DNA from: Terebella lapidaria
Taxonomy: Eukaryota > Annelida > Polychaeta > Terebellida > Terebellidae
Assembly: GCA_949152475.1 (NCBI GenBank)
Contig: OX424564.1
Location: forward strand, 2,790,001 to 2,854,000
Reading direction: 5' to 3'
Length of the DNA: 64,000 bases
This document shows positions 31,581 to 63,396 of the stretch, in pieces; positions within the stretch are counted from its first letter, which is position 1; each line of letters opens with the position of its first letter. The position numbers were made by a program, and so were the translations under genes. The notes beneath the pieces were generated by a model. The model saw only the letters and a program-made list of their open reading frames with translations, had not been told where the DNA came from and ran no database searches.

Positions 31581-31708
31581 TCAAATTTCCATTTTTTTTT
31601 TCATTTTCAGCTGGAGTGTCTTCCGTTCATTGAAAACCTTCGTCTTTATTTTTTTCCAGGAATGTTTGACACCTTTCAATGTCCTGAAAGTTTCAATTTC
31701 GTTTTGTC
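31581..31708 (-). CDS. SET/recombinase gene, terminal exon
   Basis: Preceded by a strong acceptor with a poly-pyrimidine tract (CCATTTTTTTCAG). Its first two bases complete a Gly codon opened by the last base of the 31932-32028 exon, and the frame runs 41 codons to TGA at 31581-31583. Encodes QNEIETFRTLKGVKHSWKKI and then a basic tail with KTKVFNERK. The HSW-x2-IK pattern looks like the third helix of the Myb/SANT-like domain begun in the previous exon, and the Lys-rich end could be a nuclear signal. Confidence 0.75.
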
Positions 31709-31931
31709 CTGAAAAAAATGGCAACAATGATGAAATTTGAATAGGACAAAGGAACCGCAGCATCATATAATTCACTTTTAATAATTAAGAAAGTTAGTCA
31801 CCACTGGTTACACTTTCCTATCAACACATGATCAAAACGACAATTTACAGATGTGCCACATCAAGATACTACTAGTCAGGGGAGTGAAACCTGGACCCCT
31901 AATCACCGAACATGATGAATCTCATTCATAC

Positions 31932-32028
31932 CTGGATATGTGTTCCCCTTTTTGCCCAGAATATAGGATTCGAAGTAGGTGATGACCTTCTTCGTGTCTA
32001 ATGTTGACCATCGGGTAAATCCACGGAG
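31932..32028 (-). CDS. SET/recombinase gene, Myb/SANT-like exon
   Basis: Bounded by CTTCTCAG acceptor and CCAG/GTATGAAT donor; phase 0 at entry, one base over at exit. Encodes RGFTRWSTLDTKKVITYFES and YILGKKGNTYP. The W-S-x-x-D-x-x-x-V pattern and the spacing to the HSW motif in the next exon resemble a small Myb/SANT-like fold, from my recollection of multi-copy zinc-finger/recombinase proteins in fish and invertebrates. Entry phase matches the exit phase of the tandem exons 4.7 kb upstream; the intron between holds repeats and a broken retroelement. Confidence 0.75.
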
Positions 32029-32103
32029 CTGAGAAGTATATGAGAGATGACAAAGACATACTAGAATTGACAAAGACATTCTAATTGCATGAAATATGCA
32101 TGC

Positions 32104-34585
32104 AACTAGAACGGTCTGGTCGCAGATTACCACGTGGATGTATCCCCTGACGGCCCATCATCCCCGTTGCCCGAATCCCACGAATATGTCAGTAAAATTA
32201 GCATGTCAGATTAATCAATGATTATTCAAGTCATAACATCTGTAGAGTATAAAAGATATGCTTTGTGGTCTTCAATAATAAAAGTTTCCGATCTTAACTA
32301 ATTTTATTTTGGACAGTATTAAAGTTAACTAGCATACTAAATGCTAACTTATTCAAAAAAATTAGCCCAAGGGCTAAGAGAGGTTACCGGACAAAATACA
32401 TTTTAGATATTAGCCTCTTGTCCAGTGACCTTGAAAATAAAGTCAATAATGAATTCAAGGCCATGAAATATTTAACAAATATATCACTTCTAGTATGTCC
32501 ACAATAGATTCCTAAGCTGTAAAGTCCATAATAAGTGAGATATCAGCGATTCTGTGATGTGACCTTGAAAATTAGCTCAAAGTTCAAGTTCAAGGTCATG
32601 AGATTATTCAGCATATATCATTTCTTCTATATTCGAAATTGATTCCTAAGCTGTAAAGTTGATAATAAGCGAGATATTAGCCATTTTCTTCTCTGACCTT
32701 GAAAATGAGATGAAAGGTAAAATTCTAGATCACCAAAATATTCAGCATACATCATTTCATATATGTTCACTATGGACTCCCTAAGCTGTAAATTTGATAA
32801 TAAGCGAGATATAAGTCATTTTGTATTCTGACCTTGAAAATAAGGTGACTGAGCTTGAAATTTAGGTCAAAGGTCAAATTCAAGATCATGAGAATATTCA
32901 GAATATATCATTTCCTATATATTCACAATTGATTCCTAAGCTGTAACGTCGATTATCAGCAAGGTATTAGCCATTTTGTCTTGTGACCCTGAATATGAGG
33001 TCAAAGGTCAATTCAAGGTCAAGAAAATATTCAGCATATATCATTTGCTATATGTTCACAATTGATTCCTAAGATGTAAAGTCGATAATAAGCAAGATAT
33101 CAGCCATTTTGTCCTGTGACCTTGAAAATGAGGTCAAAGGTCAAATTCAGGGTCACGAGAATATTCAGCATATATCATTTCCTGTATGTTCACAATTGAT
33201 TCCTAATCTGTAAAGTCGATAATATGCGAGATATTAGCCATTTTGTTCCGTGACCTTGAAAATGAGGTCAAAGGTCAAATTCAAGGTTAAGAGAATATTC
33301 AGCATATATCATTTCTTATATGTTCACAATTGGTTCCAAAGTTGTAAAGTCGATAATAAGCGAGATATTAGCCATTTTGTCCTGTGACCTTGAAAATGAG
33401 GTCAGAGGTCAAATTCAAGGTCATCAGAATATTCAGCGTATATCATTTCCTTTATGTCCACAATTGATTCCTAACCTGTAAAGTTGAGAATAAGCGAGAT
33501 ATTGGCCATTTCGGGCTCTGACCTTGAAAATGAGGTCAGAGGTCAAAATCAAGGTCACAAGAATATTCAGCATATATCATTTCCTATATGTCCACAATTG
33601 ATTCCTGATCTCTAATCTCAATATTAAGTGAGGTATTAGGCAAAATGTGTCCCATTATAAAGCATATGGCAATTTAACATGGGAAAGTCCCATTTGGGCC
33701 GAGTTTGGGCCCAAAATGGCCAATTTCGAGCGATTCAAGCGCAACGAAACTTCTACACATCACATGAGTATATATGAGGAGTGTTAGGCATCAATAAGAA
33801 AAAAAGTTACTGAACAGATTTTGAGAAAACGACCATCAAAGTCCAAAATTGGCAATTTTTCGTCAAAAACGGCCGCCATTTTGAAAAAAATGCGAAAATA
33901 AAAAAATAAAAAATTAAAATCCCTCTGGAAATATATTTAGGTATTTTGTGCAAAATTTCAGAAAGATTCGACCGTAAACTTTAAAGATAAAATGGTTTAC
34001 GGACGGACGACGGACGCAACGCCATGCCGATAGGTTATCGGACCAAATGTCCGGTAACCTAAAAATACTGCTGTTATAAATAGTCACCAGAGATTTGTAC
34101 ATTTGCATACAGCCAGTAATATTTGCTTCCAAACCACAAGCAATAGAGATGATCACAGATGTCAAACTGGATATTTCATACTCTTGTAATAAGTTAAAGA
34201 ATTAACTTACTAGAATTATTAATCATTCAACATTTCTGAAAAACAATAGGTTTTGTGTATTGGTCTTTACCAACACACACACACACATGTAATTTGGAAA
34301 TGTTTCATTGAAAATTGTCAACTGTAGAGTGCTTACAAGCCACATGTCCCATAAGGCCAAATTTCAGCACAAAATGTCTTGGTAATTGGCCAATTTGGTT
34401 ACCATGGCAACCAAAATCAATAGAGTCGTGCCCTTACCATAGGACATGTCCACATAAAAAATTAATAAAATCGGTTCAGATTTGCAAGCTATAGAGCGCT
34501 CACAAGAAAGTGTCTATGGCAGCAGGCGCAGCGCGACAATCGCAAATCCATAGTATCCACCAGAACTTCGTTCAGGGGATGCAAA
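32104..34585 (+). mobile_element. CTAGA-family element, interrupted by a HINE-like copy
   Basis: The left part (32104-32361) starts CTAGAACGGTCTGGTCGC with a GTATCCCCTGACGG block. The right part (34066-34585) ends GAACTTCGTTCAGGGGATGC. These ends match the better defined copy at 49664-51241. A HINE-like copy (32362-34065) sits between them, so it inserted later. No protein is coded. Confidence 0.6.
32362..34065 (+). mobile_element. HINE-like element with nuclear-receptor-site array
   Basis: Starts ATTAGCCCAAGGGCTAAG (a self-complementary hairpin) and GGTTACCGGAC; ends with the hairpin GGTTATCGGACCAAATGTCC followed by GGTAACCT and AAAA. Between 32400 and 33600 are nine ~135-bp units (ATTCAGCATATATCATTTCC ... 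CTGTAAAGTCGATAATAAGC ... ATTAGCCATTTTG), each with the AGGTCA block described at 46043-47880. It lies between the Myb-like exon and the tandem exons, in the gene's last long intron. Confidence 0.8.
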
Positions 34586-34599
34586 TATAGTATTTACAT

Positions 34600-36400
34600 G
34601 TACTTGAAAATCATAATATTTGCTTGTGTGAAATTCAGTCAAGTGTCCGGTTTCCTGTCTCCCACAAACTCAGGTAAGACCATGGGTGAGAAGGCCTTAT
34701 TGCCCTCTACATCAGCTCTAGTTTTATGGACGAACTCTCTAGTAGGGTACAAGGTGAACAAACTATTCCTGGTGAAGGAAACACACGTGAGCTAACACGA
34801 ATTAACATCTGAGCGATGTCTCCCATATGCAAGTAGCACAAACAGAACGTCTTCAACGTGACCCTCTGGATACGAACATCTGTTAAGAGGTTCTCGCAGA
34901 GGTTCAGTTAGGCAGTAAAGCACAAAACTCAAATCACACAGGGATGAGGAACAGAGGACAGAGGCGTTCCTGTCCAAGGACAAGGCAATACCTGTACACA
35001 GGCACCAGCATGGCTCGGTAACCGTCAACAGTAGCCATTTTAAGAGTCTATCAAATATAGCAGATAGCAGAGGAAGCCATTCAGGAGCCTCACAGGGGCC
35101 ATATGCGGATCAAAGCACCTTCAATACACCAACACCAACAGGTCTCGTAATTTCGGCTGTTAGACTGACCGTTTCTTCTGGACAGCTATAAGGACAACCG
35201 CTCCCGAAATCCTGTCTGCTGGAAGGATTGCCTGATAATCTCCACATGTGAAGTCTCAAGAATTGAGGGTGAATACAGTACCCACTGGCGACCAAGAAAT
35301 GGACTGAGCCAGTCGCTGGAGTAGGAATTATTCGTCTAATTCCCATGCGATCAGCTATCGCCTCTAACGCCCATTGGAAACTTGAGTATTTACCAATGGC
35401 ATGTTCGCCCACATCTTCCTCCGAATCAGAATCGGATGCAGTATGGACACTGGAACCAGCCGACCGTAGCTGTACAACAGTTAACAGTCCCTCATTGCTA
35501 CGTGCCAGAGGGACAAGATCAGTAGCCATTGTCTGGGGAACGTTTTGAGGCGATTTATCCCTGAGATCAATGGACTTGTCTGTCCAGGGGTTGGATATCC
35601 TCGAGCAGACCTACGATCAAAATCGACCACCAATGCAGTCGAATCTCGATCGGACACTGTTAAGGAACGATCGCAACGACGATTGAACCTCAACCGAGCA
35701 AACAATGAGACAGACGACTGATCAAAGGACCTGGAGTCAGATCCAACGACTGAGACGGAGGTAAAGTGTGGAAATAGATCATGCAACGTGCCATGACCCC
35801 GAGAAAAATTCGAAAAACCAGTTTCTCGACCAACAGGAGCCAACAGAGATACCTGTGTTGTCTCTGACCCAAGGGAAACCCTGGAAGAAGCCTTCTTACG
35901 AAATTTCCTACAAGCCGTCTAGGAAACAGAAGTCAACGAGGGACCTTTTTGTTGGCCAGACTAATGCTGGTCTAAACAAAGGGGAGGTAGATCCACAACT
36001 TTGACCCTCTTGACTGAGGAAGCCTTCTTAAAAGTCGTCTTGAGAGGTGTATTCTCCTGACAGGCACTGACCACAGTCAGAACTAAGGGGGTGGACACAC
36101 CGTCCGGGACACCATCTCCCATAAGGGTAGAGGTACTGGGCACCTGAAGAACCCTGGTGGGAGAATCCTAGGGACTGTTGCACTTCTAGGATACCAGTGG
36201 CCATGTTCTGATCTGCGCTCAGGAGCAGAGCAGATCCAGAACTGATATCTGAAGGAACAGGAACACTAGACACCCCAGAAGCGACGGACATAGAGACCTG
36301 CTGAGTCTTGCCAGCCTCAAGGGGCTCTATGGACGACAGAGTGATAGACTCCTGTGCGATAAACTGGAACAATAGACCGGTTGGCCGATTATATGCGCAT
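34600..36400 (-). mobile_element. DIRS-type retroelement fossil (linker and recombinase part)
   Basis: A broken DIRS-like element on the minus strand. Recognisable are the linker after the RNase H region and part of the element's own tyrosine recombinase (a DLSFVLYCLTEP helix, a YGRHRSDV box I segment and a KTRADVEGNKAFSP segment). It carries several breaks, and its recombinase end stops where a CTAGA-family element resumes near 34590. It looks old. Copy limits on the 36.4-kb side are uncertain. It lies in an intron of the SET/recombinase gene and is unrelated in detail to that gene's recombinase exon. Confidence 0.65.
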
Positions 36401-36772
36401 TTGTGAACTGAAATATAGCCTAAATACTTGGCCGGCCCAAATGAAAAGTAATGTCAATAGCTGAGGAAATGGAATAGATCTCCCGGAAGACATTAAAGCC
36501 ACAGGCAAGGGATAAAACCCCAAAACTTGCAAGCCTATGTGACTACGTCCTTTCATGATGGTGACGACAGAAAGGGGCGCCGTTTTCAGCGGAAGATACA
36601 TGGGAAACCTTTTATGTCATGTAACCTATGCATTTTTCTGGAATTAGCTCAGATCGTGGATGCAAGCAATACTACGTATTCTAGAATGGTAAGGTATTGG
36701 ATAGATGCTAAACTTGTATATTGGATGACATCAAAAAACAATATGCTTTTTGCCAAATGCGTGAGTAATCAC

Positions 36773-36895
36773 CTTTTTAGCCTTGGTGTGGGCTTCTTGG
36801 TCTGCCAGGTCACTCTCGTTCTCACTCTCAGCAGCGCTCTCCAGCTCTCCAACGTCCCGATGAGCTGTTGGCTGCCGACTGGACCTCTTGCGTTT
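36773..36895 (-). CDS. SET/recombinase gene, tandem exon copy 6
   Basis: 123-nt phase-0 exon between a TTTCACAATCAG acceptor and an AAAAAG/GTGATTAC donor. Encodes KRKRSSRQPTAHRDVGELES and a tail with LADQEAHTKAKK. It is the most diverged of the five full-length copies and the last in transcription order; its intron side also differs, as expected of an edge copy. Confidence 0.65.
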
Positions 36896-37009
36896 CTGAT
36901 TGTGAAAGGAAACCATTGAGGGACATGAAACAATTGCTAATTAAGAGCATGCTAGAACTATGTTGGAAGTTCAGAAGAATCATAGTGAAACCGTAAGGGT
37001 AGTTGGTAC

Positions 37010-37132
37010 CTTTTTAGTCTTGGTGTGGGCTTCTTGGTCTGCCAGGTCACTCTGGTTCTCACTCTCAGCAGCGCTCTCCAGCTCTCCAACGTCCCGCTGA
37101 GCTGCTGGCTGCCGAATGGACCTCTTGCGTTT
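37010..37132 (-). CDS. SET/recombinase gene, tandem exon copy 5
   Basis: 123-nt phase-0 exon encoding KRKRSIRQPAAQRDVGELES and LADQEAHTKTKK, with the same acceptor (TTCACAATCAG) and donor (AAAAAG/GTACC) as its neighbours. Confidence 0.65.
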
Positions 37133-37246
37133 CTGATTGTGAAAGGGAATCATTGAGGAACATGAAACAATTGCTAATTACGAGCATGCTAGAACTATGT
37201 TGGAAGTTCAGAAGAATCATAGTGAAACCGTAAGGGTAGTTGGTAC

Positions 37247-37369
37247 CTTTTTTGTCTTGGTGTGGGCTTCTTGGTCTGCCAGGTCACTCTGGTTCTCACT
37301 CTCAGCAGTGCTCTCCAGCTCTCCAACGTCCCGCTGAGCTGCTGGCTGCCGAATGGACCTCTTGCGTTT
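37247..37369 (-). CDS. SET/recombinase gene, tandem exon copy 4
   Basis: 123-nt phase-0 exon, near-identical to copy 5; acceptor and donor conserved. The donor side has lysines AAG ACA AAA AAG before GTACC. Confidence 0.65.
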
Positions 37370-37484
37370 CTGATTGTGAAAGGGAACTATTGAGGGACAT
37401 GAAACAATTGCTAATTAAGAGCACGCTAGAACTATGTTGGAAGTTCAGAAGAATCATAGTGAAACCGTAAGGGTAGTTTGGTAC

Positions 37485-37607
37485 CTTTTTAGTCTTGGTG
37501 TGGGCTTCTTGGTCTGCCAGGTCACTCTCGTTCTCACTCTCAGCAGTGCTCTCCAGCTCTCCAACATCCCGCAGAGCTGCTGGCTGCCGAATGGACCTCT
37601 TGCGTTT
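37485..37607 (-). CDS. SET/recombinase gene, tandem exon copy 3
   Basis: 123-nt phase-0 exon with conserved splice sites. Differs from copy 5 by an ALRD for AQRD change and a few others in the acidic middle. Confidence 0.65.
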
Positions 37608-37722
37608 CTGATTGTGAAAGGGAACCATTGAGGAACATGAAACAATTGCTAATTACGAGCATGCTAGAACTATGTTGGAAGTTCAGAAGAATCATAGTGA
37701 AACCGTAAGGGTAGTTTGGTAC

Positions 37723-37845
37723 CTTTTTAGTCTTGGTGTGGGCTTCTTGGTCTGCCAGGTCACTCTGTTTCTCACTCTCAGCAGTGCTCTCCAGCTCTCC
37801 AACGTCCCGCAGAGCTGCTGGCTGCCGAATGGACCTCTTGCGTTT
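37723..37845 (-). CDS. SET/recombinase gene, tandem exon copy 2
   Basis: 123-nt phase-0 exon with conserved splice sites. Spacing to copies 1 and 3 is exactly 238 bp. Middle reads TAESEKQSDLAD. Confidence 0.65.
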
Positions 37846-37960
37846 CTGATTGTGAAAGGGAACCATTGAGGAACATGAAACAATTGCTAATTACGAGCAT
37901 GCTAGAACTATGTTGGAAGTTCAGAAGAATCATAGTGAAACCGTAAGGGTAGTTTGGTAC

Positions 37961-38074
37961 CTTTTTAGTCTTGGTGTGGGCTTCTTGGTCTGCCAGGTCA
38001 CTCTGGTTCTCACTCTCAGCAGTGCTCTCCAGCTCTCCAACGTCCCGCTGAGCAGCTGGCTGTCGATTCTGATT
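37961..38074 (-). CDS. SET/recombinase gene, tandem exon copy 1
   Basis: First of the tandem set in transcription order: 114 nt, phase 0, encoding NQNRQPAAQRDVGELES and an acidic stretch ending in EAHTKTKK. It lacks the KRKRSI segment found in the others. The acceptor is CCCTTTCAG (or six bases further in, also in frame). Phase matches the CAG/GTAATC donor of the recombinase exon only 221 bp upstream, with no conflict. Confidence 0.7.
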
Positions 38075-38146
38075 CTGAAAGGGAAGCATTGAGGAACATA
38101 AAATCATGTGGCAGCATTAACTTTTTTGAGGAGCCATACTATACAC

Positions 38147-38215
38147 CAAACTAGAATGCTTGGTCGCCCGCGACCGCATATATGTATCTCCCAATGCCCG
38201 CGTATCAGATGCTGA
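38147..38215 (+). repeat. CTAGA-family fragment
   Basis: Short fragment starting CTAGAATGCTTGGTCGC and continuing through CCGCGACCGC (a hairpin with GGTCGC) to a degenerate GTATCTCCC block: the 5' end of the element at 49664-51241. Confidence 0.6.
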
Positions 38216-38294
38216 TCCACAGTATCCTTGGGGGACACAATTACAAAATATGTAACTGATGCACAGTTGTCACGAAACCAATTGTCATGATTAC

Positions 38295-39919
38295 CTGATT
38301 GAGGTGCTCCATCACTGGAACAACTGTGGTGAGGGCTTCAACAGCTCGAGGCACGCAATATATATTCTGGTCTATCGCCTTTGAGTGGCCCATATGTTCT
38401 ATGAATCGATCAACTGTCTTGTCATCAATGCCTTCAATTTTCCAGAAGTAGGTTGAGCATCGGTGTCGTATGCTTGTCGCTGTGATCATGGGAATGCCTA
38501 TCTTAGTACATATGGCCTTGACTTCATTATAACCGGTTATGGAATCCATTGATGCTTCTGTGTAGGCAAACAATAGATTATTGTCATTGGCAACACCAGC
38601 AAGTTTTCTTTTTTCTGGATTTATCAGCAGTTCTATCACTCTGTTGCAATCCTTGGGGAAGAAAATGGTAACTAGTCCATGTCCTTTCCCCATGAAGAAT
38701 GTCAGCGAGTATTTGGACAAAAGGGCCTTCACGTTGCCGTCAATGTCCTCTTGATTGATCCATGTGTCCCTGTGGATGTAATCGGTAACTTTGAGGTGTG
38801 CTGGTTCGCTACCTCTTCTGGCATTTATAATGGTCAACTTTGCCATAACCACTCTCCTAGCATGGATATATTCTCTCTTGGAAGTGATGTCATCTATTTT
38901 AGAAATTTCCTCATCAAGGTATGATCGAAGTTTGTCAAGATTCTTCTCGTCCGGAAGTGCTGAAGGCTTGCGGTTTTCCAGTTGTCGTTTTTCTTTGAGC
39001 TGGTACTCTGCCGAAGAAAATATTTTAGCGTAATTTGTCTTCAAAACTCTTTGGAAAAATAATACGTTGTCTAACTTTTCTTGCATTGCCAGCTTTTCTT
39101 CCTGAGTTTTCGTCCGTCGCTGTAGTATTGAGTAATGTGTAACTATGACATCTGCAGCTGTTTTGAGTAAGGTACCCATTGCGACCTTCAAGCCAGCTTT
39201 GACTTCTTCTGAATTTTCTGTCCGACACATTTCTTTCAAAGCATCTTCGACTTCATAAAAGTTAGAGCCATTGAACAGGTCAGCACACGTCGTGACTTCT
39301 TCACACAGTACGACAAGCTTCGCGAGTCTCCTCATAGCAGTGCGACTCTTGGTCTTTGCTTCTTTGACTTTGTTAGGTTTTTTCATGTCAAAAATGTGTT
39401 TCCCGATCAAGAGTATCAGGTCGTCTTTCTTGATTAGATCGAAGTACTCATCTGACTTCATATGATCGAGGACATCACACCAAGCTTGGTCAATCGCTTT
39501 GTTTGAAGCAGCAGCGTTTTTCTCACTCCCCATGCTCACAAGTACAGGCTCGAACTTCCCTTTCTGTGCTGCATGAGTCGATGGACATTTGGCGGTATGT
39601 CGTTTGGCATACTTCTTCTTGAAGTAGCCCTTGCACGCTGAACATTGCACCTTTGTGCCTGTGCATTTTCGCTCACATTGCAAATCGTTGTCGTTCCCTC
39701 CTCTCAGAATAATCTTTGTATTCTCCAATGATATACCCTCTCTTCGAATTTGATCGATTTCTTGAAGAATTTCTTTTTGAGTGATTTCGCCTTTCTCCTT
39801 CTTGTTGAGCAGCGTTTTGATGCGTTCTTCTCCATGATGCACTTCTAATAGATGCCGTCTTAAGTCGGCTTTAGGTTGGCCGCAGAAAATACATGTCCGC
39901 TTCGGCTTGGAACTTTTAC
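38295..39919 (-). CDS. SET/recombinase gene, zinc-finger and tyrosine-recombinase exon
   Basis: A single 1,625-nt exon without stops. The acceptor TTTTCATTGTCAG leaves GT, which completes a Gly with the last base of the 52575-52698 exon; the donor is AATCAG/GTAATC at phase 0. Counting that Gly as 1, residues 10-28 form a C2H2 finger (C10, C13, H23, H28) and 93-112 a C2HC knuckle (C93, C96, H108, C112). A long helical linker follows. From about 350 on lies a tyrosine-recombinase/phage-integrase-like catalytic domain: box I INARRGSEPAHL (R368/R369), a GKGHG turn (candidate Lys 412), box II TSIRHRCST (R485, H486), HMGHSKA with H512, and Tyr521 nine residues after it. Thr replaces the usual box II His. 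The nearest relatives I know are multi-copy zinc-finger/recombinase proteins of fish and invertebrates and Crypton-like recombinases. The catalytic Tyr and Arg suggest activity, or recent descent from an active enzyme. Confidence 0.85.
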
Positions 39920-40039
39920 CTGACAATGAAAAAGTATCTCATGGTACACATGCAAACTAGATGTCAAGGCCTATAGATGCCTTGGAGGCATTTTGGAACT
40001 TTTGTCTTGATCTTTGTTTCTTTATCCTGAATTTTTTCA

Positions 40040-40970
40040 CAAAGCAATTCACTCTATAATGCCGCGAGTCTGCGAGAAAAATTTGGCCCAGAGCCAAGTT
40101 CATCCAAAGTAACTCCTATGTTTTTTCATATATGACAAAGAGTCAGGAAATAACGTCCGTTTTGCTCTATGACGTACGGTTTCCGAGATATGGCCGAAAA
40201 CAATAAACGCTGACTCGACAAAAACTTTTTTGGCCCAGAGCCAATTTTGCCCAAAGTATCCCCCTAGGTTTCTTCTTCTTCTAGACCGACGAGTCCAAAA
40301 ATAATGTTTGTTTTGATCTAAGACACATCGTAACCATGGTAACCCAGGTACGGCCAAAATAGGAAACCACTGATTCAGGAAAAAAGATTAGCCCAAGGGC
40401 TAAGAAAGCTTACCGGACAATATATATTTTAGATCTTAACCTTTTGTGCCATGACCTTAAAAACAGGGTCATTGTTCAATTCAAGGTCATGAGAATATTC
40501 AAGTCATATAATTTCCTATATATTCGCAATTGATTCCTAAGCTGTAAAGAAGATAATAAGCAAGATATTAGCCATTTTGTTCTCTGATCTTGAAAATGAG
40601 GCCAGAAGTCAAATTCATGTACCTACTAGGCTTCTTCATCTGGGTCAACGAGTCAGAAAGTAACGTCCGTTTCACTCTACGACGCACCGTTTCCGAGATA
40701 TCGGCCAGAAAAAAATATGCCATTTCTGGCCCAGAGCCAACTTCAACCACAGAACTGCAGGCTGACCTAAGCAAAGAATACAAATATAACGTCCGTCCGA
40801 AATATCCTTGGAAAAAGAAAATGCCGACTCAGCAGAAATTTTTTTGAGCCAGAGCCAATTTCACCCAAAGTACCCACTAGACAAATGTACCTAGGCCGAC
40901 GAGTCCAACAATACGTCCGTTTCACTCTACAACTCACTGTTTCCGAGACACAGCCAAAAAAAAAAGTTAG
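40040..40970 (+). repeat. Fragmented CGTTTCCGAGATA repeats and partial HINE-like copy
   Basis: Several ~140-bp units marked by TGGCCCAGAGCCAA, AACGTCCGTTTCGCTCTACG-like and CCGTTTCCGAGATA words, interrupted at 40387-40620 by the 5' part of a HINE-like element. The same unit is tandem at 42.4-43.3 kb and 61.0-61.6 kb. No coding content. Confidence 0.65.
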
Positions 40971-41876
40971 CCAGGTTACCAGACAATTTTGGTTGAAGCA
41001 CGACAGGTGAGATATATGACATTCAGATCAACCCTTCGAGGTCAACTCCGTTAAATTCAATTTCACCATCAAGCGTGCACCATATAACCTTGTATATGTT
41101 CCAAATACAAATACAAGGTCTATCTACAAGTATTTTGTCATTATACAAAATTTACACATTTCAGTCCAACATTTTTTTCAAAGGGTGAACAATTTTTTTT
41201 TGCCTAGAAATGACCCAAAATGGATAGTAATGCGATTTGAGGCAAAACAATTTTTTTCCCGTCGACCCGTCAAAAATTCAAAATGGCCGCCACACGGAGA
41301 CCGCCGATTCAAGGGCAACAAAACTTATATACATCATAAAGGTACATAGGGGGAATCTTTCGAAACAAAAATCTCAAAACTGATCACACAGTTTTCGAGA
41401 AAAGACAGACAACTTGAAGGTGCAAAATTGGGCATTTTTCGACTGCAAAATGGCTGTTTTGACATTTCAAGTTCATCCAAGGTCAAATTCAAGGTAACCA
41501 CACAAGTCGCCATATATGACTTCCCATTTGAAAGTGCCAATTTCTAAGCTCTATCTTCAAGCGTTCTATGAGTACAGTTTCGGCAGCTCGTATTATGAAG
41601 GAAAAAAGTGTCGAAAATTTTCTAAGTCTGAAATTTTTTTCAAAGGGGGGGAAATTTTTTTTTGCCTAGAAATGGCCTAAAATGGATAGTATTGCAATTT
41701 GGGCCGAAAATTTTTTTTTTCGTTGACCCGTCGAAAATTCAAAATGGCCGCCATACGCAGACCGGCGATTCAAGGGCAACCAAACTTATACACATCACAG
41801 AGGTACATAAGGAGAATCTTTTGAAACAAAAACCCACGACAATAGCTTATCGGCCCATATGGGCCGGTAAGCTAAA
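40966..41876 (+). mobile_element. HINE-like element, variant copy
   Basis: Starts GTTAGCCAGGTTACCAGAC and ends with the hairpin CTTATCGGCCCATATGGGCC then GGTAAGCTAAAA. It lacks the ~135-bp array, carrying instead the block with TTCAAGCGTTCTATGAGTAC shared with 48.3-48.9 kb. Confidence 0.6.
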
Positions 41877-52885: not shown

Positions 52886-53089
52886 CTGAAAGGAAAATAC
52901 AAACGATATATATCTCTTGAGGATTGCTTTTCCATTTAATATTCACATTTTTAAAATCATGGTTACCAATGGTTATCATGGGAATTGATTTAAATAGTTA
53001 TCTTATTTTACTCCTGCACTGAAAAATACATTTCAACAAATACATATATTTTAAAGTACTGAGGCTTGCACAGTACTAATACTACAAAC

Positions 53090-53447: not shown

Positions 53448-55618
53448 ACATAAGCGAAAGCTGGATCTTGTCCGGGGTCTCTGCGCCATTCTGCAGCTGC
53501 GTCCCCACCTCTATCTTGTCCGAGCTCTCTGTGCCGATCTGCGGTCCCACCCCGACCTTGTCCAATCTCTCTGTGCCATTCTGCGGCTGTGTCCCCACCT
53601 CGACCTTGTCCGAGCTCTCTGCGTCCTTCTGCGGCTGTGGCCCCACATCCACCTTGTCCGAGCTCTCTGCGCCATTCTGCGGCTGCGTCCCCACCTCGAC
53701 CCTGTCCAAGCTCTCTGCGCACTGCTGCGACTGCGGCCCCACATCGACCTTGTCCGAGCTCTCTGCGCCATTCTGCGGCTGCGTCCCCACCTCAACCTTG
53801 TCCAAGCTCTCTGTGCCGTTCTGCGACTGCGGCCCCACATTGACCTTGTCCGAGCTCTCTGTGCTGTGCTGCGGTCCCACCTCGACCTTGTCCGAGCTCT
53901 CTGCGCCATTCTGCGGCTGCGGTCCCACCTCGACCTTGTCCGAGCTCTCTGCGCCATTCTGCGGGTGCGTTCCCACCTCAACCTTGTCTGAGCTCTCTGC
54001 GCCATTCTGCGGCTGCGTCCCCACCTCGACCTTGTCCGAGGTCTCTGCGCTGTTCTGCGGGTGTGTCCCCACCTCGACCTTGTCCGAGCTCTCTGCGCCA
54101 TTCTGCGGCTGCGTCCCCACCTCGACCTTGTCCAAGCTCTCTGTGCCGTTCTGCGACTGCGGCCAAACATTGACCTTGTCCGAGCTCTCTGTGCCGTTCT
54201 GCGACTGCGGCCCCACATTGACCTTGTCCGAGCTCTCTGTGCCGTGCTGCAGTCCCACCTCGACCTTCTCCGAGCTCTCTGCGTCGTTCTGCGGCTGCGG
54301 CCTCACCTCGGTCTTGTCTGAGCTCTCTGCGCCATTCTGCGGCTGCGTCCCCACCTCGACCTTGTCCGAGGTCTCTGCGCTGTTCTGCGGCTGCAGCCCC
54401 ACCTCGACCTTCTCCGAGCTCTCTGCGCCATTCTGCGGCTGCGTCCCCACCTCGGTCTTGTCTGAGCTCTCTGCGCCATTCTGCGGCTGCGGCCAAACAT
54501 TGACCTTGTCCGAGGTCTCTGCGCCATTCTGCGGCTGCGTCCCCACCTCGATCTCGTCCAAGGTCTCTGCGCTGTGCTGTGGCTGTGCCCCCAACTTGAT
54601 CTTGTCTGTGGTCTTCGCACCATTCTGCGGCCCGACCTCGACCTTGTCCGAAGTCTCTGTGCGATGCTGCAGCTGTGTCCCCACCTCGATTTTGTCCGAG
54701 GTCTCTGCGCCGTTTTGCGGCTGCGGCCATACCTCAACTTTGTCCGAGATCTCTGCGCTGTTTTGCGGCTGCGGCCCCACCTCGACCTTGTCCGAGGTCT
54801 CTGCGCTGTTCTGCGGCTGCGGCCCCACCTCGACCTTGTCCGAGGTCTCTGCGCTGTTCTGCGGCTGCGTCCTCACCTCGACCTTGTCCGAGGTCCCTTT
54901 GCCGTACTGTGGCTGTGTCCCAAACTTGATCTTGTCTGAGGTCTCTGCACCGTTCTGTGTCCCCACCTCGACCTTGTCCGAGGTCTCTGCGCGATGACGC
55001 AGCTGTGTCCCCACCTCGATTTTGTCCGAGGTCTCTGTGCCGTTGTGCGGCTGCGGCCATACCTCAACTTTGTCCGAGGTCTCTGCGCTGTTCTGCGGCT
55101 GCGGCCCCACCTCGACCTTGTCCGAGGTCTCTGCGCTGTTCTGCAGCTGCGGCCCCACCTCGACCTTGTCCGAGGTCTCTTTGCTGTGCTGTGGCTGTGT
55201 CCCCAACTTGATCTTGTCTGAAATCTCCACACCGTTCTGCGGCCCCACCTCGACCTTGTCCGAGATCTCTGCGCGATGCTGCAGCTGTGTCCCCACCTCG
55301 ATTTTGTCCGAGGTCTCTGCGCCGTTTTGTGGCTGCGGCCATACCTCAACTTTGTCCGAGGTCTCTGCGCTGCTCTGCGGTGGCGGCCCCACCTCGGCCT
55401 CGTCCTCGTCCGAGGTCTGTGCGCGATGCTGCAGCTGCATCCCCACCACGATCTCGTCTGGGGTCTCTGCATCGTTCTGCGGCTGCGTCCCCACCTCGAT
55501 CTTGTCCGAGCTCTCTGCGCCGTTCTGCGGCTGCGTCCCCACCTCAATCTTGTCCGAGCTCTCTGTGCAGTGCTGCGGCTGCGTCCCCACATCGTTTGCT
55601 TGATTGATGGTCTGGTGC
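53448..55618 (-). CDS. SET/recombinase gene, giant 16-residue-repeat exon
   Basis: About 2.1 kb open on the minus strand, built of about 44 units of 48 bp encoding VEVGTQPQNGAESSDK with variation (VEVGP, ETSDK, IEVG, some units shortened by two or three residues). Predicted to be hydrophilic, acidic and disordered; no known domain. The 3' end at 53448 uses TTATGT/GTACGTTC, leaving one base that fits the next exon. The 5' end is less certain: GACAG at 55619 is the better looking acceptor but its phase does not fit the 55956-56021 exon, whereas AATCAAG at 55599 does. Five of six frames are also largely open, a by-product of a repeat length divisible by three. Confidence 0.7.
53490..55590. repeat. 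48-bp coding minisatellite, ~44 units
   Basis: Consensus plus-strand unit: CCCACCTCGACCTTGTCCGA, GCTCTCTGCGCCATTCTGCG, GCTGCGTC. Two higher-order blocks of roughly 370 bp alternate (seen as recurring shortened units with CCTCGGTC or AACTTGATCTTGTC), so the array grew by duplication of multi-unit blocks. GC content is far above the surroundings. Confidence 0.95.
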
Positions 55619-55955
55619 CTGTCATTAAATCGGCATACATGGTAATGTCACTATAATGTACCTATGCATTGCTGAATTATGTATTATAATCAGGGTTATT
55701 GAATAATTTATTATTAGTCATGTTAGTGGTAGGCCTGGCAATCGTTGATGAGGATCAATATCGATAAACATGAACCCACTATTGATATTATCATTGATCT
55801 TTGCGATTTGGCGTGGCCTTAGCTATTTACTACTCACACTGAATTTCAATTTCTTACAAGCAGAATACTATATTTATGTGATCAAATTTAGTTGACATAT
55901 TGAATACATTGGAAAATAACTTACATATCATGCATATCTGAGTGGGTTAAGTAAC

Positions 55956-56021
55956 CCAGGCTGACTTTGTCTTTGTCCAACGACCCATCTTGTGGACTCG
56001 GCAAGGCTACACGTATGTCCT
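55956..56021 (-). CDS. SET/recombinase gene, linker exon (or 3' exon of a separate gene)
   Basis: 66 nt after acceptor CCACCTTCAG. Its first two bases complete a Glu with the previous exon. Encodes DIRVALPSPQDGSLDKDKVS then L; donor CCTGG/GTTACT is weak. If not spliced, the frame runs on to a stop at about 55922, which would make this the last exon of an elongin-A-like gene. Both readings are open. Confidence 0.5.
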
Positions 56022-56066
56022 CTGAAGGTGGAAAAAATACATCACCGTTTAACAATTTACCAGTAT

Positions 56067-58050
56067 TTACAAATTGCAGCCACGATCAAAGTTATCATCG
56101 TTCAAGACCAATATCAGGCTAATATCCAGGCGGTTTGACAAACAGAAGTAGCCAGAACCAAGGAAGCTGGGGAAGTCAGGCCTAAAGGTATTACTGATTC
56201 GAAAGGATCGACAACACTCGCACAACTCCAAGCATGGACGAGATAGATGGCGGGTCACACCCTGCGTATGGTTGTTCTTCATGAAAACTGGCTCCTCAGG
56301 GATGGGTCGCTGGACAATCACCACGCATGCAGATTGAGCAATCCAGCGTTCATGTGAAACATGCTGTCCTGTTGAAGAAGCTTGAAGATCTGTGGTAGCC
56401 CGAGAGTGCTCTCTAGCAAGAGCTCTAGAAGACGTGGGAACCAAGCCTGTGTGGGCCAATTGGGTGCAATCAAAGTCTAACCCAGAACAAGAGTCAACCT
56501 TCTTGAGATTCTCACATATCAGACAGCAGGAAGGAGGGGGGAGGGGGTGGGCATAGGCAGCCAAATGATGGCACGACTCAGAGAGTGTTCAGTCCCAATG
56601 GAACGGTCGTCAGGATAAGGTGACATAAACAATGTAGCCTGGGGTTCTCTGTGGTGGCGAAAAGTAGACGCATCCACTATCGATCAGTAGACTCATCCAC
56701 CGCCTCCAGAGGGCTTGACAAACACCCGGATGGAAGAACCATGCGCCCGGGAGAACCCAGGTCGGCTGAGCCTGTCTGCCTGTACATTCTGGCAAGCAGG
56801 GATGTGACAACTGTGGCGAGTGATGTCATGGCTGTTGGCACATAGGAGTATCTCCGCCGTCACAGCAGAGAGCTGTCGAGAATGAGTACCGCCCTGATTC
56901 TTCATGTAGCCCACCACTGTCAAACTGTCGGCCATGGTCAAGGTACAATTTGAAACGATGATCAGAAATATGGTCAAGGTACAATTTGACCGTGCGAAAA
57001 TCGCAATGTGATATTATAATATATGCTTACACTTGATATATTAGTTGACAATAAGCGAGACATAGGCCATTTTGTGATATGATATTAAGAAATGAGGTAA
57101 CTTGATGTCAAATCAAATGGCAATAACTAATCCGGAACAGTCTAATCAATGTCTTGTGGGCTGCGTGTAGCAGAGAGATAGACTGAAACACCCGTGTGAA
57201 GACATGGAGAGCTGTGAAGAGCACAAAGCAAAGGGCTCTAAACTGGTAGACAACATCATCCCACGAAAACCGGAGATAAGGCTGGGATGATGGATGAATG
57301 GGGTTGTGGAATTAGGCCTCCTAGAGGTCTATCGATGTAATCCAGTCTCCTCTCCACCGAGAGCCCCTGGTGGACCTCGGGGTCTCCATCTTGAAGTGAG
57401 ACTGCTCAACAAACATATTGAACGGGATTAAGTCAATGATTGGTCTCCAGCCCACCGATGGACCTGGGGAACACGAACATGCAACAGTAAAACCCCGAGG
57501 AGGCCCTGGGTCGAAGACCTCCAGGGTGGATCCCTTGAGTAGCATTTCTGCATTCCAGCTATGCAGTGCCAATATATCAATCAATGCCCCTAGGATATGA
57601 GCCCATGACCTGTGGTGATCTTGTGACTGGGGGAACAGACAGGAACGAGATCCTGTACCCCTCTTAGCTGGTCTGGACAGTCCAAATCTCCAGAAATCCA
57701 GTAGTCGTACACCCACCGGGGACAGTAGGGGCAGAAGTGAACCCCAATGAGTCGAGGACCCAGTACTCTCTTGTAACCCTGGACCCGTCATGTACCCTCC
57801 CTCTCGGCGGTCCTGATACCTCTGTGGCCTGGGGTCCGACCTCTTGTAGGCCATAGGCAGTGGCCCTCCTGGACTCGTCCCACAGTAAGTCCGTGGTATA
57901 GACTGGCCGCTTGCGCTGTGGCTCTGGTTTCACGGGTACAGAGGTAAACGGCTTAGGTGAGCTGGTCATCAGCTGACTAAGCTGGATGTGAGTTTACGTC
58001 AAGATTTCTTTTCGATGAGCCTCTTGTTGGGAGAGCTCATTAATTTGCTG
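56067..58050 (-). mobile_element. DIRS-type retroelement fossil (gag, RT and RNase H parts)
   Basis: A broken DIRS-like element on the minus strand. Recognisable are a gag C-terminal region near 57.9 kb, the RT start (SVGWRPIIDL and FKMET segments) at about 57.35-57.5 kb, and the RNase H region (DSLTVVGYMKNQGGTHSRQL, HIPACQNVQADRLSR) at about 56.73-56.93 kb. Several breaks; old. It lies in the intron between the 58222-58312 and 55956-56021 exons. The matching recombinase-side fossil at 34.6-36.4 kb may be a second copy or a displaced part. Confidence 0.75.
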
Positions 58051-58221
58051 GTTTAGCATGCGGACTCCGCGCTAATAGGCTGATCATAGCTGGTAGTGTA
58101 CGACAGAGAATTTGTAATTCTGCATTAATACAAATTGGCTCCTAAAAAGCAAGTTGGTTCTTAGAAAATTTTTTGATTTCGAGCCCTGTAGTACAGTTTG
58201 GTTTTGATGATGGGTACATAC

Positions 58222-58312
58222 CAGACTCATCGCTCTTGGCGTGTGATTTGCTGCTGTTTACTGTCGGGTTCTTTATATTACGCAGCGTAGCTTCCCTCTC
58301 GTCTTGCTTGCT
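58222..58312 (-). CDS. SET/recombinase gene or elongin-A-like gene, linker exon
   Basis: 91 nt between TTTACAG and TCTG/GTATGTAC, both good sites; enters at phase 0, exits one base over. Encodes SKQDEREATLRNIKNP then TVNSSKSHAKSDES. QDEREATLRNI resembles the QDAREQRLR segment that follows the BC-box region in elongin A. Its entry phase equals the exit phase of the elongin-like exon at 62220. Confidence 0.6.
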
Positions 58313-58379
58313 CTGTAAATCAACTAGACATTAAAGCCTCTCGGCTTTGTGGCATCCCGGCAATTTTGTTTTGGACCAA

Positions 58380-58800
58380 TATTCAGCTAAAAATAGCTGC
58401 TAGCCGCCATCTTGGAAATCAGATCTCCATGGAAAAAAATAAGGGGCTGTATCTAAGTATGTTGGATGAGCTCTGAAGGTTTCCAGAAGATCGCTCAAGG
58501 TGTTCTTGAGTTATCATCCGGAAATGGCAAAAACAACCAATTTTCGATTAAAAATGACTGCTGGTGGCCATCTTGGAAATCAGGTCTCGATGAAAAACGA
58601 TAGGGACTGTACATGTATCTAAGTACGATAGAGACTGTATCTGTATGTTGAATGAGCTCTGAAAGTTTCGACAAGAACAGACTTGGGAATCGGATCTCCA
58701 TGAAAAACAATAGGGGGCTGTATCCAAGTATGTTTAACATGTTTAATGAGCTCTGAGAGTTTCGAGAAGAATGGTCAAGGCGTTTGTGAGTTATCATCCG
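58380..58800 (+). repeat. ~170-bp repeat, three copies
   Basis: Three diverged units marked by CATCTTGGAAATCAGATCTC, ATAGGGGCTGTATCTAAGTA and GAGTTATCATCCGGAAA. Intronic. No coding content. Confidence 0.65.
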
Positions 58801-61020
58801 GAAACGGGCGAATGCTACATGCTAAAAGCTAAGCTGTGCGATTACGTGCAACTTGATGTTAGCATCAACTCGCATGGTGCGACCAGTGGGCACGATGCCA
58901 TCGCATCAGGCGGCCATCTTAGTTGAACAGGCGAGCATTGTCTCGCACAGATGCGCGCATCCTCTATTTCAGACACAAATACAGACTTTAATATGAACTG
59001 AACTTAAACACTGCATTTGCCCATATGAACTACATGATATAGACTGTCTATAAACCACTCGACCATATGTTTGCGAGCATATGCGAGCATATAATGGCCT
59101 TCACAAAAAAAAAACGAAATGCTTTAAGTGTGCCACAGTGCCAAGAAGCAATGCTAGCATCGGCAATGCTCGCACACATTATGCTAGCTTCAAATCACAC
59201 GATGCTAGGTCAGGCGAAGTTTGGCTAACACGTGCTAAATGCCAGGTTCAGCGTGCTAGCATTTTGGTGAGGTTCTTGCGACATCGGTACTGTATGACGG
59301 TCGGATTCGTCCGGAAGGACTGTTACCTGGTTGTAGTTTCAGTAATCACGATGCCTGCTGTGAACGTGCCACCGTGCGGGGCGCTTGCGAACTAGGTAGC
59401 GGGCGTCAAACGTTACAAAAAGTTCTATTAACTGGAATGGTGCAGCATTTCTTTCGATTGCGAGTAGTGGTCGAGTACTGTATTCATTCTAATTACAGTA
59501 CTCCCCGCTTAGAAAATTTATATTGTTGCCCTGAAACCATGAAAACACCAGTCTCTAGCGGTATTGTCAATCTATTGCCTGCCAGGCACTAAGGGGGGGA
59601 AGGGGGTGCTAGTTGACTTCTATGGCCCATTCACACCTCTCTCCCTCCCTGCTTCTGCTTACCCAGTCTCCACACACAGCACCCCATTTATATCTAAGGC
59701 AAGTTATGTGTTCCTTTATCACATTTTGCATCAGGAGGTGATGAATAAGTGGCAGTGTGCGCTTTTTAGAGCATACATGTGCGGTAATTAGAATGAATAC
59801 AGTATATCAATTGAGACCCATCGATGTGTTTCCACAGTATACATATCTCTAAAATTCACTTATTTACCCACAGATCATGCAGATGATTAACCTATCGCCA
59901 AACCAGTTTGTCCGAGTCTTTTTTCGCCATTTACGACGCATTCTGCAAAACGTTATTATTGTCCAAAGAGAAGTTTACCGACGTAATTTGTGAAACTCAG
60001 ACAACTTTTGGAGGTTTTGGCGATAGGTCGATTGATCCAGGAGAGCAAAGCTTACCATATAATGTCCTTGCCAACTCTCAAATGGACCTGTTCTTGATGA
60101 CTTAAAGTCTTTCATGCACAATTCCTCCCAAAAGTCCTCCGTTTCTCCGATTAAATGCTGAAAACATATCGGTACAGTAGAACCTGACTTTTATGATCAC
60201 CCAAGGACTAAGAAAAAGTGGTCTCACATTAATGACAGGTGGTCTCTCAGGACCGATTGGTTAACATGTTACACAAGGCAACTCCATGGAGTGATGTCCC
60301 TTGTCGAATTTCTATATACACATGTAGCAGGACATGAGTTTGGGGTGCTTGCAAAAAATATTTCTCGATTTATCTTGTTTGCAAGGCGGAAAAGTGATGA
60401 TTTTTGCCTTTAATTGCAAAGTTTAAAGTAAACTGTGAGCTTGCAAAGTTGGCCAAGGTCACCCATTGTCGAACTTGTCCAAGAATATATTCATGTGCAT
60501 GTACATGTATGGGCCTAATTTGGCATCGTTGCACAGAATATTTCTCGAGTTATTGTGTCTACAAGTGGAAAAAGTAGTGATTTTGGCATTTTGCAAAGTT
60601 CAAAGCCAGCTGTGATCTCCAAAAGTTGGCTAAGGTCACCCATTGTCAAACTTGTCCGAGAACATAGTCATGTACATGTGTGGGCCTAATTTGGCGTCGT
60701 TACGCAAAAGATTTCCCAAGTTATCGTGTTTACAAGGCGGAACAAATTATTCAGACGGACGCACGCACGCATGCACGGACAGCAGTTCCATGTCCTCGGC
60801 GTGACACAACGCGTCGGGGGACAATGACCACTTGTGTCACTGCGAGATGGTCTCAAACCTCAGGTTGGTCTCTCTCGACAGGTGATCTTTACTCAGGTTA
60901 TACTGTTCATAGTGAAATCATACGAAGCATCGAGGACTTATATTATACTAGTAATTTTTGACAGTCAATACTTCAAAAGACTATCGACTATTGACAAACT
61001 TGACTGCATGATAAACTAGA
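58801..61020. other. No exon seen; old repeats
   Basis: Intronic. A repeat near 60175-60810 starts CAGTAGAACCTGAC and ends in a GACGGACGCACGC-type microsatellite and CAACGCGTCGGGGGACAATG; a ~180-bp unit in it (AGTTATCGTGTTTACAAGGC) is repeated about twice. I looked for the missing elongin-A exon (LWK then C-rich block) here and did not find it. Confidence 0.4.
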
Positions 61021-61640
61021 CGTAGAGGCCTAGAGGCCTCGGGGCATTTCGATACACAACACAATCACAGGTGAACTGTTAATTACTGACAACCAAAATG
61101 ATTACGTAGATACATCCATTTCACTCTAAGACGATGGTTTCTGAGATATGAATGAAAATAAACCAGATTTGGCCGAAAATGAAAAACGCCGACTCAGCAA
61201 AAAAAAAAAATTTGGCCCAGGGCCAAGTTCACCCAAGATACACCTAAGACATGTTCGTCTAGTGTCACGAGTTCGAAAATAATGTCCGTTTCACTCTACG
61301 ATGCACCGTTTCCGAGATATGGCCGAAAATGGAAAAAGGCGGACTCTGCCAAAAAAAAAAATGGGCCCAAGGCCAAGTTCACCCAACATATCCCTAAGAC
61401 ATGGCTGCCTAGTGTTACGAGTCCGAAAATAACGAACGTTTCGCTCTACGACGTACTGTTTCCGAGATATGGCCGAAAATGAAAAACGCAGACTCGGCAA
61501 GAAAAAAATTTGGCCCAAGGCCAAGTTCACCCAACATACCCCTGCGAAACATGTTGCCTAGTGTTACGAGTCCGAAAATAATGTCCGTTTCGCTCTACGA
61601 TGCACCGTTTCTGAGATATGCAATGAGCCTCAAGGATGAC
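61020..61640 (+). repeat. ~140-bp CGTTTCCGAGATA tandem array, four units
   Basis: Units marked by TTTGGCCCAAGGCCAAGTTC, ACCCAACATA, GTCCGTTTCGCTCTACGA and CCGTTTCCGAGATATGGCC, related to the arrays at 40.1 and 42.4 kb. Confidence 0.8.
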
Positions 61641-61809
61641 TCACCAAAATTGTTTTCGGCCCCTGGGTCAAAGGTCATTTGAGGGATTGACCCCATAATC
61701 GATAGGGTTCCTCTGCGACACTATATCAACATATATGTCAAGTTTCAGAATGGTAGCACAAGTACTTTTTGAGTTATCATCCAGAAACCATTTGACACAA
61801 AATTCCAGA

Positions 61810-62205
61810 TTATAAAACTAGAACATGCAGTCCAGTTGCAGACGACCGCTTGGGTGTATACCCCGACGCCCCATCCTTCATCATGTTCATGTTGCCCAGA
61901 TCACCCAAGATATTACCATTATGATCATGGTGATTTGCAATGCTAACGAATTAATATCATTAAGTTTTTATTGATTCTCTTGGCGCTCACAAGCCATGTG
62001 TCTCGTAATAGCAAATTTCAGCACAAAATGCCTCGGCAACTTTGGAAAGTTTGGTTGCCATAGCAACCAAAATCGATAGGTGTCTGATCTCACCATAAGA
62101 TATGTTCACATAAAAAAATTCGTAGCATCGGTTGAGATTTGCAACTTGTGGAGCGCTCACAAGGAAGTGAACATCGTCTGAGACAATGATACAAAGACTT
62201 CTTGA
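61810..62205 (+). mobile_element. CTAGA-family fragment, internally deleted
   Basis: Starts CTAGAACATGCAGTCCAG with CGACCGCTTGGGTGTATACC; then jumps to the 3' half (CAAGCCATGTGTC, GGTTGCCATAGCAACCAAAA, ATCGGTTGAGATTTGCAA). The terminal GGGGGATA is missing. Confidence 0.65.
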
Positions 62206-62219
62206 TATCACAAGGTTAC

Positions 62220-62309
62220 CTGGTTATATTCCTCCAGTGTGGAGAGCTGCGATGCGTTGCATTGCTCCAGGATGGGCTTTAACCGCTCCGCTGGGATACC
62301 ACCAACATT
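62220..62309 (-). CDS. Elongin-A-like exon
   Basis: Encodes NVGGIPAERLKPILEQCNAS then QLSTLEEYNQ, ending at CAG/GTAACC (phase 0). The pattern VGxxP...PILExC...QL...EEYN matches the conserved elongin A segment beside the elongin BC-binding region. The acceptor is ambiguous: ATCAAG at 62310 keeps phase with the SET exon; TTTAG at 62318 adds Ile-Lys, as in elongin A, but does not fit the SET exon directly. The rest of elongin A (TFIIS-N domain, LWK block) was not found, so this is either a captured fragment in the large gene or part of an interleaved elongin-A-like gene. Confidence 0.6.
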
Positions 62310-63200
62310 CTTGATACCTAAACACCGTCAACACATTGAATTTAGTGCCAAATGTATTGTTTTCAAATAAAATTCATTTACAGTGCACTTAAAATTATAT
62401 GGAAATCACAAAATTAATCATGATGATGCAAATTTAATATATTCTGTTATGATGGCGATAGTGGCAGTGGTGATGATGATGATACTTACTGTCAATGTCA
62501 TTTGTGAGCACTTTCAAGCACGCATCAAACAGGCTTGGTACCACTGTCAAGATAATCATCATAGTATTAGCTTCCATTCATCATGTTCATCATGCACATA
62601 CAGCCATGGGCACACCACAAACTCAGCATCATCATGATCATACATGGACCATGTACACAGCCAGGGACAAAATTGTACATTACATTTATTATAAGTCTGT
62701 GTACTGTACAACAAACAGTTTGTAACTACATGACATCATAGATGTAGAGCTATGTAAGCAAAACAAACAGTAGCCCGCGGCTTTCGTACAGACTACAAAA
62801 AAACAGCAAAATGACAACAAATAATATGAACAAATTCATATTAGACTGATTAATGCACCTTTGCAAGCAGGTACTGGTTTCTAGAATGAAAAAAAGAATC
62901 GGACGTTAAGAATGATGTATGGGATTAGCCTACATGATAGATGTACAATATACACAGCATGAAAAAACTATACTTTACATTCTACATGTTCTAACCATCT
63001 ACTTAGTATGTGAAGTACACACAAAAATTGTGACCAGTGATCAGTGACCATGGTTACAACTGTAATGTACTTGGTGCAAAATTCTGGGATACATACAAAT
63101 GATATATGTATGTATGTCTAAAGCAAACTAGCATCTAAAAGACAAAGATGTGTTATAATCATGATAGAGGATGGATGGATGGATAAATAGATACACTCAC

Positions 63201-63396
63201 CCGTTTCCTCCACCAAGACTCACTAAACCCATAGTCATAGCGTAATTCGGTTTGAGGTGGAATGTCTGACACAGCAAATAAACATAAATGTGGGCGATTA
63301 TTCACATTCAGCACGCGAATGTGTGTGTTGGCTCCAGTCGACGAGTCTTTGTCATTTACGTAACGGCCTAAAGTTTCAGTCATGGTTGCATCTATG
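63201..63396 (-). CDS. SET-domain exon (C-terminal half), gene 5' end off window
   Basis: Bounded by TTTGTTTTCAG and CGG/GTGAGTGT (strong donor). Encodes IDATMTETLGRYVNDKDSST, then THIRVLNVNNRPHLCLFA, VSDIPPQTELRYDYGF and SESWWRKR. This is the SET core: LGRYVND takes the place of the GR-x-xNH motif, ANTH follows, and ELRYDYG is the E-L-x-Y-DYG catalytic/pseudoknot segment. It resembles KMT5A-like lysine methyltransferases. His after Asn is replaced by Asp (VND), as I recall from invertebrate and fish SET proteins of this type. The N-terminal SET half and any start must lie beyond 64000 or in an exon I could not find at 63.4-64 kb. Confidence 0.8.

Follow-up and report, generated by a model that had tools for sequence, protein, structure and literature searches.

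A 41.7-kb element of the annelid Terebella lapidaria, probably a giant DNA transposon mobilised by a predicted SET-tyrosine recombinase gene

Cryptons (CryptonA/CryptonI) are eukaryotic DNA transposons that use a tyrosine recombinase, and in the part of their paper cited here Kojima and Jurka found no terminal repeats and no C-terminal domain in animal Cryptons (PMC3212892). Starships are of giant size, use a tyrosine recombinase and sometimes have inverted repeats at their ends, according to the sections cited (PMC12134995); they are fungal, carry many cargo genes and have a captain with DUF3435. Endogenous nimaviruses of crustaceans are also giant and insert in microsatellites or 28S rDNA; the cited portion of PMC10871703 describes a zinc-motif tyrosine recombinase in some of them, and in some (TA)n insertion with 46-bp inverted repeats, the (TA)n insertion being ascribed to a Ginger2 DDE integrase. 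The locus described here lies in a 64,000-bp stretch of the Terebella lapidaria genome (contig OX424564.1, C11:2790001-2854000; genome of 762 Mb in 438 contigs), hereafter the window. It contains a mobile element of 41,737 bp, which runs from position 27169 to extended coordinate 68905 (C11:2858905); coordinates above 64000 refer to the window plus fetched adjoining DNA (40 kb, 1 kb of it overlapping the window). The element is probably an autonomous giant DNA transposon, mobilised by its own intron-rich multidomain recombinase gene, and this SET-recombinase gene is the only substantial gene recognised in it.

The ends of the element were compared across copies, the 3' end in C8, C4 and C5 and the 5' end in C8 and C5. 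The 5' end at 68905 reads (TA)n-CAGTGAGGATTAGGTCAACG, and the 3' end at 27169 reads ...CCTAATCCACTCTG-TATAGTTG-(TA)n. The 3' end is formed by an imperfect palindrome, which bears the terminal repeat CAGAGTGGATTAGGTCATCG in inward reading and direct copies of GGATTAGGTCAACG-like motifs. The flanks are unrelated between loci, and the copies end at the same bases beside (TA)n. Several near-identical copies with shared ends and unrelated flanks are the pattern by which a DNA transposon is recognised; a (TA)n target would conceal a target duplication in the one assembly examined. The first-pass annotation had left the choice between a domesticated recombinase gene and an intron-rich mobile gene. 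The copies speak for the mobile gene; four near-identical copies in unrelated surroundings are at odds with a domesticated gene present once.

A count of the recombinase exon in the genome, which that annotation had named as a check, gave four near-identical open copies (C11, C8, C5 and C4; 99-100% amino acid identity). These differ by 4 to 14 bases per pair, with in-frame gaps of 6 bases (C5) and 9 bases (C4). In the 0.8 kb flanking the exon on one side the copies differ by 0.4-0.9%; on the other side pairs differ by 0.2 to 30%, a range blurred by the tandem exons, where the alignment does not match the repeat units. Four genomic occurrences, at ~100% identity, were counted for the stretch 52575-53200. 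Among 20 probes from C8, 11 matched the element at 97.8-100%, ten of them collinear with the main copy as far as 27122 and one in an upstream local duplicate, while 7 had no match and the matches of 2 were confined to a repeat elsewhere in the window. In C4, C5 and C17, other sampled stretches gave about 96-99.6% identity, and shorter palindrome pieces near 92%. Judged from these identities, the element appears to have recently moved to several chromosomes.

Long, near-identical, intron-containing copies would also result if a host gene had undergone segmental duplication between chromosomes, and local tandem duplications do occur: a 4.3-kb piece of flank and 5' end is duplicated in tandem at C8, and the C4 copy has internal duplications, its second 3' end lying about 9.4 kb from the first. 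This explanation is nevertheless very improbable in view of the common end points beside (TA)n with unrelated flanks, a short two-ended derivative and a second family whose 5' end follows this pattern (both described below).

The terminal motif, allowing at most one mismatch, was found 16 times in 762 Mb, and the control 0 times. Fourteen occurrences lie in terminal structures at C11, C8, C5 and C4, the inner arms of the 3' palindrome and local duplicates included. Another is a fifth 5' end, at C17, which stands in (TA)n and is accompanied by SET and partial Elongin sequence with no recombinase match; the last belongs to the short two-ended derivative, at C15, also in (TA)n. This distribution bears on the possibility that a DDE transposase (Ginger2- or Tc1-like) moves the 41.7-kb unit in trans via its terminal inverted repeats, the SET-recombinase gene being mostly cargo. 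Such movement would agree with a palindromic 3' end like that of a miniature transposon and with the existence of the short derivative. However, with 14 of the 16 motifs at the four copies, no separate family with such a terminus is evident, and a miniature-transposon origin of the ends was made less likely by the same count. In addition, the six open frames of the element tested, each of at least 120 amino acids, gave no DDE match, in a scan that left out the plus-strand frame 36497-36919, the repeat-array frames and the shorter spliced exons. Movement by a DDE enzyme in trans is considered unlikely, also since a second SET-recombinase family, whose 5' terminus differs, uses the same target.

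This second family is represented by copies at C1 and C9, whose recombinase is 31% identical to that of the window. The two copies are 99.98% identical over 4638 bp, and of ten paired probes five were identical and five unrelated, which places the size of the unit at roughly 23-29 kb. Their 5' end, TTTCTCTAGATGCGTCATTCGG, is unlike that of the first family but likewise adjoins (TA)n, with differing flanks. That two families with different 5' termini have the SET-recombinase gene and the target in common favours the gene product as the mobiliser, although this argument is limited by the use of (TA)n as a target by other transposons.

The gene model of the first family comprises 22 exons joined by 21 in-frame GT-AG junctions and encodes 1985 amino acids on the minus strand, from 66914 to 31581, with a single stop located at its end (Table 1). 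In order, the product would contain a KMT5A-like SET domain, an Elongin A box, 16-amino-acid repeats, two zinc motifs, the tyrosine recombinase, 41-amino-acid repeats and a conserved C-terminal domain. The first-pass annotation had described a gene from 63396 to 31581; its end was retained, while the start was moved to 66914, which requires 2.9 kb of genomic DNA past the window end. Every junction it had named between 53448 and 31581 was found to have AG/GT borders and to keep the frame in the phases it gave, and nine more in-frame GT-AG junctions upstream of the repeat exon add both SET halves and Elongin_A. For all but one of the six tandem exons the acceptor is CAG followed by AAACG, 3 bases further in than initially placed, and the frame is unchanged. 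Since exons were partly picked for keeping the frame, the frame by itself is weak evidence, and the ATG of exon 1 may not be the true start, as an acceptor-like AG precedes this exon.

Table 1. Coordinates of the element and of the exons of its predicted gene, in window positions (extended coordinates for exons 1 and 2).
Feature	Coordinates	Strand	Evidence or remark
Element part inside window	27169..64000	-	Ends compared across copies, C8 probes, terminal motif count
Element 3' end, imperfect ~630-bp palindrome	27161..27790		Adjoins (TA)n
Exon 1 (SET N-terminal half, part)	66914-66800, beyond window	-	Joined model
Exon 2 (SET N-terminal half, part)	66592-66427, beyond window	-	Joined model
Exon 3, SET C-terminal half	63201..63396	-	Pfam SET; KMT5A/SETD8 match
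Exon 4, linker	62859..62880	-	Joined model
Exon 5, Elongin A-like region begins	62490..62543	-	PDB match, joined model
Exon 6, Elongin_A domain	62220..62317	-	Pfam, PDB 8oev
Exon 7, Elongin_A domain	60056..60157	-	Pfam, PDB, joined model
Exon 8, Elongin A-like region ends	58222..58312	-	Pfam, PDB, joined model
Exon 9, linker	55925..56021	-	Joined model
Exon 10, ~45 copies of 48-bp (16-amino-acid) repeat	53448..55618	-	Repeat analysis, joined model
Exon 11	53090..53181	-	Junction check, joined model
Exon 12	52832..52885	-	Junction check, joined model
Exon 13, acidic/serine-rich linker	52575..52698	-	Junction check, joined model
Exon 14, C2H2-like and C2HC zinc motifs, helical region, putative tyrosine-recombinase catalytic domain	38295..39919	-	
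Exons 15-20, six tandem exons of 238-bp repeat, 41-amino-acid units	36773..38074	-	
Exons 15-20 singly	38074-37961, 37845-37723, 37607-37485, 37369-37247, 37132-37010, 36895-36773	-	
Exon 21, conserved C-terminal domain, first half	31932..32028	-	C6 paralog match E 7e-5; Myb-like in the first-pass annotation
Exon 22, C-terminal domain, second half and stop	31581..31708	-	C6 paralog match E 2e-4

Before the recombinase exon, the intron (39920-52574) measures 12.7 kb here, against 6.2 to 6.9 kb in the three further copies. The extra DNA was placed between 44401 and 52575 by one C8 probe, in a stretch that has 134-bp tandem arrays.

The catalytic set of tyrosine recombinases consists of R, K, (H)xxR, H and Y. 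In the protein collection, the product of exon 14 had 16 relatives with 27-51% identity (7999 candidates scored), and R369, K412, T482, R485, H486, H512 and Y521 (exon-product numbering) were invariant in 19 of 19 aligned sequences. The signature order R, K, TxxR, H, Y is present, with T standing where the first H is expected. The PHROG integrase profile was matched by 2 of 15 aligned members (best 3.3e-6) and Pfam Phage_integrase by 2 of 17 (best 0.0013). On the strength of these residues and matches, exon 14 is very likely to be correctly named a tyrosine recombinase. Nothing relevant to the recombinase was found in NCBIfam, no relative was found in the viral_contigs scan, and a PDB search with the recombinase alignment gave chance-level matches only (best E 0.24). 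Fourteen of the 16 relatives aligned as far as the end of the recombinase exon, where 13 have V, a possible GT donor, and one has T. Recombinase matches numbered 67 in the whole genome. Distant recombinase-like matches (20-28%), at C2:52846827, C6:18556596, C9:26057517, C11:41176059 and others, lie in long open frames of about 400-1856 amino acids, several with identical scores, and represent other multicopy families.

The SET domain was matched by Pfam at E 3.1e-6 with exon 3 alone and at 2.8e-11 when the N-terminal half was included. The closest solved SET proteins are KMT5A/SETD8 (E 5e-17, query residues 31-151). NHS and YDYG are SET motifs with functional roles; here YDYG is retained and the NHS position of KMT5A reads NDK. 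The Elongin A box was matched by Pfam Elongin_A (E 1.5e-16, 87 of 105 profile positions) and by Elongin-A in PDB 8oev (E 9.4e-23), and no other Elongin A parts were recognised in the stretches scanned. The earlier domain list had the C-terminal half of SET right but overlooked its first half and the Elongin A box, and the Myb-like domain that it proposed gains no Pfam support, with no Myb match in the gene product at E 1. A genome search with the Elongin_A profile was uninformative, returning no match even to the copy in the window, probably because exon boundaries interrupt the domain. Elsewhere in the genome, C16:10606307-10606786 gave a separate Elongin A-like match. The near-full-length protein retrieved one relative, 28% identical and 921 amino acids long. 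Methylation by the SET domain and a chromatin-writing role within one protein may be proposed, as predictions from sequence.

The linkage of the SET and recombinase parts was evident from a paralog at C6, whose recombinase is 43-45% identical to that of the window. There, on one strand, an exon for each half of SET (N-terminal, then C-terminal) is followed by the recombinase exon and two C-terminal exons, the latter divided at the same residue and phase as exons 21 and 22. With the C6 sequence reversed as a control, neither SET nor C-terminal parts were matched; the locus itself yielded no Elongin A, exon 1 or acidic linker. A genome search with the SET-Elongin part gave 61 matches, of which 34 belong to the family of the window element itself. 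Two others are the C16 Elongin A-like locus, two are second exons of counted C1/C9 loci, and the remaining 23 fall into 18 loci. At 7 of these 18, a recombinase match lay on the same strand no more than 40 kb downstream, compared with 0.03 on average and at most 2 in simulation (2000 random placements, assuming 17 equal chromosomes and using all 67 recombinase matches). As C1 and C9:14.36M are near-identical and two linked C15 loci are duplicates, the independent linked lineages number five: C6, C1/C9, C9:10.1M, C15 and C13. The earlier joining of SET to the recombinase is thereby supported, with SET present in relatives of five lineages; of the C-terminal parts, the two last exons are kept at C6. 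These results support one conserved gene architecture to which both the SET and the recombinase parts would belong.

It is quite unlikely that the element instead contains two adjacent genes, one for SET-Elongin and a separate one for the recombinase. The model was built from genomic DNA, the halves are parted by the 12.7-kb intron and the repeat exon, and the C6 paralog gives the order and strand but not the joining exons. Against this division, the intervening junctions are all in frame, no stop or second start is needed, and SET stands upstream of the recombinase in five diverged lineages.

Equal-score SET matches at C5:8763399, C4:14753770 and C7:40288644, with no recognised recombinase near, perhaps represent a further mobile family. 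At C15:25.63-25.85 Mb, SET and recombinase fragments recur at a spacing of 112,594 bp, as a tandem or assembly duplicate.

For the mobilisation of the element by its own gene product, a mechanism can be proposed in which the recombinase domain, the zinc motifs and the C-terminal domain would bind repeated GTTGACCTAATCC-type sites at both ends. The recombinase would then pair the ends and cut and rejoin the DNA by its tyrosine at a TA-rich core, so that (TA)n microsatellites would receive the element. At the donor or the target, chromatin may be marked or read by the fused KMT5A-like SET domain. The Elongin A box may recruit Elongin B/C-cullin, which would either remove a host factor or limit the element's own protein. 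We infer the recombinase as mobilising enzyme, the strand-exchange steps and all SET, Elongin and C-terminal roles from the domains and the ends.

Several observations weigh against a functional, self-mobilising SET-recombinase gene. The window's own recombinase exon had no direct match to the PHROG integrase or Phage_integrase profiles. Of eight diverged proteins compared with Pfam, only P0016 matched Phage_integrase, at 0.0052 and under the curated cut-off. Profile-profile comparison (hhalign) with five recombinases from this genome gave no significant score (E 0.47), and its restricted version was no better than shuffled columns. The replacement of NHS by NDK makes SET catalysis uncertain. 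The 5' end of the C4 copy is truncated and rearranged. The C13 and C15 linkages depend on short recombinase fragments, and 11 of the 18 diverged SET loci, including the three-copy set C5/C4/C7, have no recognised recombinase within 40 kb downstream. The gene is a prediction from genomic sequence. Finally, the terminal inverted repeats together with (TA)n resemble those of Ginger2-bearing sesarmid nimaviruses, as described in the portion cited of PMC10871703, which would suit a DDE enzyme acting in trans.

Other features were seen in and near the element. Open-frame fragments at 34600-36450 and 56000-58000 have the look of retroelement debris, possibly DIRS-like; two weak, irrelevant Pfam matches (0.039 and 0.082) were obtained there. 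A short-repeat array at 16466-17115 is open in three frames. The product of the open frame at 13804-14598 (264 amino acids) resembles an N-acetyltransferase, and that of the single-exon open frame at extended coordinates 100729-101961 (411 amino acids) a seven-helix receptor.

In comparison with the known proteins that its parts most resemble, the predicted protein differs from KMT5A/SETD8 (PR-Set7) in the fusion of SET to Elongin A and recombinase parts and in NDK for NHS, and from Elongin A (ELOA) in the SET domain that precedes the Elongin A box. Among the literature matches listed (titles and abstract openings), no paper linked a recombinase transposon with a SET domain. The results modestly favour a superfamily of giant transposons in animals, in which the transposase would be fused to a SET of the histone-methyltransferase type, with an Elongin A box added in one family. 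One protein would both write chromatin and recombine DNA, and the gene plan and (TA)n target would be common to several families with different termini. If this is true, the element would be a direct test case for a transposon's use of histone marks and ubiquitin-ligase recruitment in choosing when or where to insert, and the close similarity of its copies would permit a search for ongoing movement.

Unlike the animal Cryptons, as far as the cited part of their description extends, the window element is 41.7 kb long and has terminal inverted repeats, 22 exons, exons after the tyrosine recombinase, and SET and Elongin parts. No Pfam match to DUF3504 or DUF3435 was obtained among 17 members at E 0.5, which sets its recombinase apart from the DUF3504-type enzymes of Cryptons and from the Starship captains. 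Starships share the giant size and the use of a tyrosine recombinase, but the host here is an animal and one gene was recognised. In contrast to the nimaviruses, no viral gene was noticed in the element, though no systematic search for viral genes was made. The element would work like a tyrosine-recombinase transposon, yet departs from animal Cryptons and from Starships in the features tested.

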